Positions 54,199 to 57,100 of a DNA stretch of 64,000 nt are shown one piece after another. The position numbers and the translations under genes were made by a program. Each line of letters opens with the position of its first letter. Position 1 is the first letter of the stretch. The stretch is from Mugil cephalus (taxonomy: Eukaryota; Chordata; Actinopteri; Mugiliformes; Mugilidae): assembly GCF_022458985.1 (NCBI RefSeq), contig NC_061789.1:7420357-7484356 (forward strand). The letters are read 5' to 3'. The notes below the pieces were generated by a model. It was not told where the DNA came from. It was given only the letters and a program-made list of their open reading frames with translations, and ran no database searches.

Positions 54199-57100
54199 CT
54201 GAAAGACAAAAAAAAAACAAAAACATAGCAATGATGAGAATAAAGGCTAAAAAGGTCTGTACAAATGCAATGAAATTAGCTTTGCAGCAACGCACTCTTG
54301 TCCCTCCTTGGCTCCTGCCCTCTTGCTGCGTCGTGCCATCTTGGATTTATAGCTCGACTTGCGAGCAGGACCCACTTTTATGGAAGTGTTCTCAAAGGGT
54401 GTTGTTGTAACGGTCACCTTGTTTCCACTCTGAAAATTACATAGATTTACAACATTTTAGAGGTCGATTTCATCTCGGTTTTAATTTCTGACAGACTGAA
54501 GTATCTCACCTTCAGGATGAGCTCCACCACCTCCGTGTGGACCAGACCATGGACCGACTCCCCGTTCACGTGGGTTATGAGGTCCCCAGCACTAAGTCCA
54601 GCCTCCTGAGCGGGACCTCCGTCCTCCACATGCTAAGATTAAAACAGATAATGTCGCTGATTTGGCCATTTAAAAAGACATTCATTGAAATTGTCATATG
54701 GCATTCCACAGGGCTCTATACTTGGTCCACAGAACTTTAAATTTTTGTTCATTTTCAAACAGATTTTTATAGCCCAGCCTCCTGAGCGGGACCTCCACCC
54801 GAGACATACTACGATGAAAAACGATAATGTCGTTGATTTGGCCATTTATAAAGAAATTCATTGAAATTGTCATATGGCATTCCACAGGGCGCTATACTTG
54901 GTCCACGGAACTTTTCATTTTTGTTCATTTTCAAACTGATTTTTATAGTCCAGCCTTCTGACCAGGACCCTCATCATCCACATGCTGCGATTAAAACAGA
55001 TAATGTCACTTATTTGGCCATTTAGAAAGAATTTCATTCAAATTGTCATATGGCATTCCACAGGGCGCTATACTTGGTCCATAGCATTTTTTTAGTTTTG
55101 CTCATTTTCAAACATAGTTTAACAGAAGTATAAAATAAAAGTACTGAGGCAGTTAAATATTTATTTGTGCACTATTCATGGGTTCCTGTTAATATTATAC
55201 TCATATTTAAAGGCCTTTCTGTAGTAACGTCACGTTGCAGTGGGTTTTGAGAATATCTTTGTCACTCATTCCTAACCAAAACAGGTCAAAGTAAACACGG
55301 ACTGGTATTCTGTGCCCACAAATTAATTAAGTACTTGTGCGTAAGTAGTTTGTGTACATGGATGGGTAGATGAGAAGGTTAAAAGGTTGTTTTTCTTGGA
55401 AACCTGGAAGTTTCAGGCCTGGGTTTTGTAAAGTGTTGTTTCAACATTTTGTAGCTCTGCAGGTGGAAAGGTGGAAGCCAAAATTAGAATTTTTAATTAT
55501 CCTGTTCAGCACTTTTTTATATTTTACTGTTTGATGTAAAGCTTAAAGCTGCATTACAATAATAAGCAGTAGAGACATAATTCTGTCAATGATGTTGTCT
55601 CTGCTCTCTCACCCAGACCATGTGATGCACGCTGTAAATGTCGCTGTCTCCCATGTAGACTCTGATCGCTCTCAGAGTGAAGCCATACTTCTTCCCGGAG
55701 CGGTGGATTGTGATCGGAGAGCGCAGGACGTTGACCATAGGGGAGTAGTCTCGGCTGGGGGAGGAGTCCCGAGACGAGGGGTTGGACGAGAGGGAGCGGG
55801 GAGACATGGGGCTCGCCAGAGGGGAGGCGCCGTGTTGCTCCACTGAGGAGAGAGCGGTTAGGATTTATTTCAAGTTATTAAGTCCTTTTCTTTTGTTTTT
55901 TTTTTTTTAAATATGAGACGTGTCCTTACCTGCAGGAATCATGACAGACAGAGCAGTAGCAGAGGCAGATTTAATAACTTTGGTTCCAGGTCGTGAAGTA
56001 AGTTTGTCTCCCTCAGCCGAGAGCTGCTGGTGTCGAACTCTTCGCAAGACGAGGTCTGTGGTGGCCCCGCGGGAGGCCTGCGGGTCGGGAGGCCCTAAAA
56101 CGGTAGCACCGCCCGACAGAGGCAGCGATGCATCGGCAGGTCTCAAAAGTTTATCTGTGATATGATGGAGATATGAAAGTAAACAGAAACTCCTCATATC
56201 ATATGTTTTCAAATAATTAGTGATGACATGCTGCCTTACCTCCAGCTGTGTGGCCGTTACCATCCTTAAAAAGTGTCCTCAGGTCGCCTTGAGAGGGGCT
56301 GGCTCCCTCCAGGGAAGTCCCTCTCATCTTCACTGCAGGTTGCTTTCCCGGCACAGGCAACTCAGAGTCCAGCTCCAGGGGGGAGGCCATGCGATACGTA
56401 TCCATGAGAGCGGAGAAGCGTCTTCGGGCCCCGGACGGCTGACTGGAGTCGCTCTCCATGAAGGACGACTCGGAGCAGGACAAGCGCTTCCTGAAAAAGC
56501 GAAACTTTTAAATAAAGCTTTTTCTCACTGAGCAAAAGCAGCTCTGTTTGCTCACTCTTCTCTGCACTCACATTTCAGGCGAGCCAGTCCGCCAGCTCTT
56601 GTCTCGGAGGGTGACACTTCCCAGACTTTCTCTCTTGGCCACTCGATCCTCCCGGGGGATCTTGTGATCCCGGAGAGTCACGGTGTGGGGTTTATGCTCC
56701 AGCTGAGACAGATGCTCCATACTGCTGTACACCTTCGGACGCACAAAACATTACAGTTAGTTTTTTTTTGGCAAAGACTGCGCCGTTGCGTGGATTGGTG
56801 AACGAAGATTTTATTTATTAAGATTTTTATTACAGGTCCTGACCTTGCTGAAGCGTGGGGAGCAGGACGAGAAGCGATGAATCTCCACAGGCTCGTCGTC
56901 GTTGGTGTCGTCCTCGTCGTATGACTGCACGTGATGATACCGCTCGGACCGGGCTAGAGACGGGAAGCAGCAAGACACCGTGGTTTAAAAACCCCATTCA
57001 GATATTATGTTAACATCTGTCATTCCATTGATCATGGTTCTCAGACAGTGGTAGAGATACATTAGTGAGACCCAAAGATGTTGTGTTTATTTGCATACAG

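Follow-up and report, generated by a model that had tools for sequence, protein, structure and literature searches.

Introduction

Duplications that copy the end of an intron together with the start of the next exon have been reported as a source of new introns. In the potato RdRp gene, Ma and colleagues described a tandem duplication across an intron-exon boundary, the copies of which reportedly inherit a putative branch site, a pyrimidine tract, an acceptor and putative enhancers (PMC4974935). The resulting new intron is spliced, as confirmed by RNA-Seq, and employs a GTAAG donor that was recruited from the exon (PMC4974935). De Grassi and Ciccarelli proposed that tandem repeats located at human exon-intron boundaries may form novel introns, and listed 27 intron modifications; the units of these repeats average 30 bp and are repeated 4 times, and the repeats are recent (primate) and often polymorphic (PMC2812944). 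In Drosophila, novel introns have been linked to sequence that was duplicated or inserted locally, as well as to weak splice sites and NMD (PMC2891723, PMC2809761).

Here we describe a tandem array in the MAST1 gene of Mugil cephalus, carried on the minus strand of a 64-kb stretch of DNA (hereafter, the window). Like the duplication in potato RdRp, it takes in the last part of an intron and the first part of the following exon, so that both an acceptor and an exon start have been copied, but it differs from the potato case in having three units, each with a stop codon at the seam and lacking a good in-frame donor, and in being known from sequence alone. It shares with the human internal tandem repeats a position at an exon-intron boundary, whereas its units, at 176 bp, are much longer than the average given for those repeats, are present in three copies and are 11–19% diverged. 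The Drosophila cases are similar in that a local duplication or insertion supplies splice sites, with NMD there hiding the unproductive transcripts; there, however, coding duplications or insertions became new introns, while in MAST1 an existing intron merely grew. The array appears to be the same kind of event as the published ones, here comprising three units that carry an RT-like passenger, and the original prediction, which had called a minisatellite across an exon boundary and built partly from a retrotransposon unusual, overstated the case, since boundary-crossing duplications are already on record (PMC4974935, PMC2812944).

The MAST1 Locus

The gene was identified as MAST1 from the two exons that encode its PDZ domain. 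When joined, these give a Pfam PDZ match, align without gaps to human MAST1, and have as their best PDB match 3ps4, the MAST1 PDZ domain (E 9.8e-55). Among the structures of the four paralogs, the PDZ is nearest to that of MAST1 (186.9 bits), followed by MAST2 (177.7), MAST4 (167.7) and MAST3 (161.5). The two halves of the domain are separated by a 980-bp host intron (54633–55612, minus strand), the last 493 bp of which belong to the array. The exon upstream of this intron ends in ...HHMVW, and the downstream exon (54510–54632, minus strand), which was assigned to the second half of the domain by its reading frame, the 3ps4 match and the Pfam PDZ match, begins in frame with HVEDGG. Its real acceptor AG is at 54634–54633, and its real donor, GTGAGA, starts at 54509, both on the minus strand.

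Two other features of the window were recorded. A repeat some 80 bp long is dispersed over three places, 26842–26917, 57857–57937 and 58799–58878 (pairs 83–89% alike). Two of the copies fall in MAST1 introns, according to the exons as read, and the remaining one is inverted and about 31 kb distant. On the plus strand, an open frame of 326 aa (41208–42188) matches galactose-3-O-sulfotransferase (Pfam, E 1.2e-69). A search of the whole window against Rfam at gathering thresholds returned no match.

Structure and Edges of the Array

Tandem Repeats Finder reported a repeat at 54598–55114 with a period of 176, 2.9 copies, 85% matches and a score of 766, and a separate repeat search found three copies at spacings of 176 and 176, with ungapped identities to the reference copy of 89% and 78%. 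Together with a column comparison, these results bear out the prediction of a tandem repeat straddling the start of the MAST1 PDZ exon. The array (54595–55125 in plus-strand coordinates) consists of three head-to-tail units of 177, 176 and 176 bp, each of which, in the direction of the gene, begins with about 140 bp from the end of the intron and continues through an AG acceptor into the first 36–38 bp of the PDZ exon. Copies of this make-up, arranged head to tail, identify the array as a tandem duplication that crosses the intron-exon boundary.

Unit 1 (54597–54772, minus strand; 176 bp), delimited by the repeat search and column comparison, has the real acceptor, preceded by the 3' part of the intron and followed by the opening 36 bp of the real exon. 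The two extra copies were delimited by column comparison, acceptor scan and a route test. Unit 2 (54773–54948, minus strand; 176 bp) has a decoy acceptor at 54808, and unit 3 (54949–55125, minus strand; 177 bp) has a decoy acceptor, CAG, at 54984; in both, the AG has been kept, and is followed by a decoy exon start and a TAA at the seam. The AG-preceded exon starts lie where they had been predicted, and the predicted three units of 176 bp were also found, with unit 3 being longer by a 1-base insertion. The exon piece was likewise confirmed as common to all units, at 29/36 identity to the real exon in unit 2 and again 29/36 in unit 3, although its length is 36 or 38 bp rather than the 34 bp originally given.

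A position-by-position comparison placed the near edge of the array at 54595, beyond which identity on the exon side drops to background. The far edge lies at about 55125, given the 1-base insertion in unit 3, and is ambiguous by some 11–13 bp, with the final 13 bp matching at 9/13 positions. Both ends are abrupt, one at exon position 38 and the other within the intron. The array reaches 36 bp into the exon, or 38 bp (54595–54632) if the junction dinucleotide is counted; this CT, at 54595–54596, continues the exon by two bases and is also the dinucleotide with which each unit opens. Minisatellites (VNTRs) consist of several near-identical short units of about 10–100 bp, and the earlier use of that label was rejected on account of the 2.9 copies, the 176-bp unit and the 11–19% divergence.

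Divergence and Probable Order of Duplication

Units 1 and 2 differ at 19/176 positions, units 1 and 3 at 27/176, and units 2 and 3 at 34/176, corresponding to a divergence of 11–19%. Forty of the 177 alignment columns are variable, with 21 singling out unit 3 (one being the insertion), 12 singling out unit 2, five unit 1, and two differing in all units. As this distribution of unit-specific columns fits an early split of unit 3, it suggests a two-step order, in which the first duplication would have set unit 3 apart and the second given rise to units 1 and 2. If mutation rates between 3e-9 and 1e-8 are assumed and applied to the intron parts of the units (including the 1-base insertion), the duplications would date to roughly 5–15 and 9–29 million years ago, figures that serve as a rough guide. 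A hybrid middle unit formed by unequal crossing-over was considered and rejected, as unit 2 sides with unit 1 from column 3 to 169 and displays no breakpoint.

Within the exon piece, one change is specific to the real copy, compared to six in each of the decoys, a contrast that is suggestive only (1/36 vs 12/72; Fisher, p = 0.056, above 0.05). If the decoys hold the older base, the single change in the real copy is GAT to GAC, which is synonymous; those of the decoys, as read by eye, are mainly amino-acid changing. In unit 2, the exon piece has taken up changes at a higher rate than the intron part of that unit (6/36 vs 6/141, p = 0.017), which is not predicted by neutral drift at an even pace, while unit 3 shows no faster change (6/36 vs 15/141, p = 0.38). 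Four of the six exon changes in unit 2 fall within 6 bp (columns 147–149 and 152), and this cluster may represent a single event. In the intron part, unit 1 has fewer specific changes than unit 3 (4/141 vs 15/141, p = 0.015), and this can be explained by the branching order.

The variable columns are also unevenly spread. A 42-column core around the RT-like motif (54688–54729 in unit 1) contains just one, compared to 39 in the other 135 columns (permutation p = 0.0024). Three definitions of a conserved stretch were tried, allowing 0, 1 or 2 variable columns, and gave p values of 0.022, 0.0024 and 0.0022, respectively. Uniform drift leaves the conservation of the core unexplained, and gene conversion between the units is a possible, and the simplest, account.

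The RT-Like Block

Each of the three units carries an RT-like motif on the plus strand, opposite to the gene, at 54700, 54876 and 55052, as had been predicted. The units encode LSYGIPQG[S/A]ILGP, with S in unit 1 and A in units 2 and 3. We take G-[IV]-PQGS-[IV]-LGP to be a conserved RT motif of non-LTR retrotransposons; unit 1 fits it, and units 2 and 3 have A in place of S. A broad form of the pattern, searched in all six frames, was found at three places only in the 64-kb window, all within the array, and in none of 20000 dinucleotide-shuffled versions of unit 1, so the motif is not expected by chance. The fragment around it can be traced by motif and reading frame over 37 protein letters in unit 1 (54661–54771, plus strand), and by the motif in unit 2 (54837–54947, plus strand), where there is one in-frame stop upstream of the motif, and in unit 3 (55013–55090, plus strand), where a stop follows it directly.

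These are short pieces, and neither Pfam searches with the fragments of units 1, 2 and 3 (37, 38 and 23 aa) nor a PDB search with the 37 aa fragment of unit 1 gave a match. The block is likely to be a LINE scrap, judging from its motif, and it probably lay in the intron before the duplication rather than causing it. The proposal that the array was built partly from a retrotransposon can be retained as regards the presence of the RT-like motif in every unit, with the LINE identity standing at the level of the motif. A second RT-like scrap, CTVGVPQG*VLGP, was noticed at 5673–5711 (plus strand) when three plus-strand frames were read; it is a short, broken match and shows no significant DNA match to the array.

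Decoy Acceptors and Their Predicted Products

The sequences leading up to the exon starts are ..TTTTAATCTTAG for the real exon (54632), ..TTTTTCATCGTAG for unit 2 (54808) and ..TTTTAATCGCAG for unit 3 (54984). Scored with rough matrices of acceptor and donor frequencies, in place of a trained program, and serving for ranking only, the decoys reach 6.31 and 6.33 vs 4.38 for the real acceptor. By this simple scoring with a rough matrix, the pre-exon sequence of unit 3 does equal or better the real one, as had been claimed. Unit 3 also has CAG in place of TAG, and a TGAC-like branch site could be discerned by eye.

For comparison, 11 other acceptors of the MAST1 gene, placed by eye from reading frames and representing a subset of its introns, scored from 3.0 to 15.1 (median 8.4). 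The 19 peptide anchors used for this purpose included one that is the real exon, two that overlap, and six that were dropped with the acceptor unplaced (LQEF, VYLV, DDIV, EHLS, DLRT and LPTR). On the minus strand of the 64 kb, exons and array included, 266/4024 AGs equal or exceed the decoys in score, or 4.16 per kb. The part of the intron that was scanned has 51 AGs, among which the decoys take third and fourth place and the real site comes fifth. The top acceptor-like AG of the host intron (55456–55476, minus strand; ttccacctttccacctgcag) lies outside the array and scores 10.75. Since AGs of equal score are common and a stronger one is present in the host intron, the decoys are not distinguished by score alone; the matrix is blind, however, to the copied upstream sequence and exon start that each of them carries.

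Read-through from either decoy gives 13 codons and then the TAA at the seam, and from the decoys it is 299 or 475 nt to the real donor. In the route test, each decoy acceptor was combined with a GT donor and a later acceptor, excluding donors ≤40 nt upstream of the next acceptor. Two of 37 such acceptor-donor-acceptor routes are open, both requiring a 3-nt exon and using donors that score 2.6 and -4.56, compared to 10.69 for the real donor. On sequence alone, an in-frame new exon arising from the decoys was rejected, these being the only open routes, and realistic use of the decoys would be unproductive. The description of them as ready-made cryptic acceptors, taken as a notable feature, goes too far given the frequency of such sites, the stronger AG in the same intron and the distance to the donor.

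Origin and Fate of the Copies

The array most probably arose by successive tandem duplications of the intron-exon edge, with the copies now drifting as intron and the decoys ignored or rarely used. The source would have been a segment of about 176 bp, comprising the 3' end of the MAST1 intron, which already carried the RT-like scrap in opposite orientation, and the first 36–38 bp of the exon. This segment would have been duplicated in tandem, and one unit duplicated again later. The first step possibly involved the 2-base CT as microhomology, which hinges on treating the 13 bp that match at 9/13 positions as homologous; otherwise, there would be about 11 bp of filler at the junction. As the extra copies lie upstream of the real acceptor, within the intron, neither the exon nor its donor was disrupted, and the extra copies became intron. 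They would then have drifted, their exon-like parts gaining mainly amino-acid-changing substitutions while the real copy took a single synonymous one. Splicing most likely passes over the copied acceptors or seldom uses them, any likely route from them leading to a stop and an unproductive transcript, with NMD as the presumed outcome.

Several observations count against plain drift, namely the higher scores of the decoys, the retention of both AGs, the conserved 42-column core and the exon rate in unit 2. A rival reading is a poison splice, in which 54984 or 54808 would be used modestly, perhaps in a tissue-dependent manner, introducing a premature stop in the PDZ and lowering MAST1 output through degradation of the transcripts. 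Each copy does contain a whole 3' splice site region plus exon start, with the CAG and branch site candidate of unit 3 and a TAA at each seam, both decoys outscore the real acceptor, and there is a precedent in potato, where use of the copied acceptor is reported with 106 RNA-Seq reads (PMC4974935). Acceptors of such score are nevertheless common, and the normal product bypasses the AG of this intron that scores 10.75, as the gap-free match of the joined PDZ to human MAST1 demonstrates. Moreover, the decoy exons would have to extend 299 or 475 nt to the real donor, or rely on weaker donors (best 5.53 vs 10.69), and we regard modest use of this kind as unlikely. A stronger version, in which three complete, competing 3' splice sites form a lineage-specific poison switch that truncates the protein in the PDZ when 54984 or 54808 is used, with the decoy acceptors kept by selection while the coding part decayed, seems to us very improbable.

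Alternative origins of the copies were also weighed. Capture of the exon start by an element derived from a LINE, or the insertion of a LINE, could account for the RT-like motif in all units and its absence from the shuffled sequences, but the best other match of the unit in the 64-kb window is 23 bp long (E 0.097), with none being significant, and the ends of the array differ from those of the RT-like part as far as these can be traced, making a dispersed repeat a poor candidate. It is scarcely credible that the extra copies are absent from the genome, because units that differ by 11–19% are unlikely to be assembly duplicates; differences at 19 to 34 of 176 bases are well above usual sequencing error or heterozygosity. 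Against this stands the general experience that tandem repeats are a known source of assembly errors (PMC6868369).

Successive duplication followed by drift thus remains the preferred reading, and we infer that the array is probably an old neutral relic, with rare unproductive splicing being possible. Its significance would be greater only if the decoys were in use. As a relic, it would represent a sequence fossil of an intron that grew through duplication of its acceptor and the adjoining exon start while the exon went unharmed, and it provides an internal comparison within a single array, in which the real copy of the exon start has one copy-specific change and each decoy has six.
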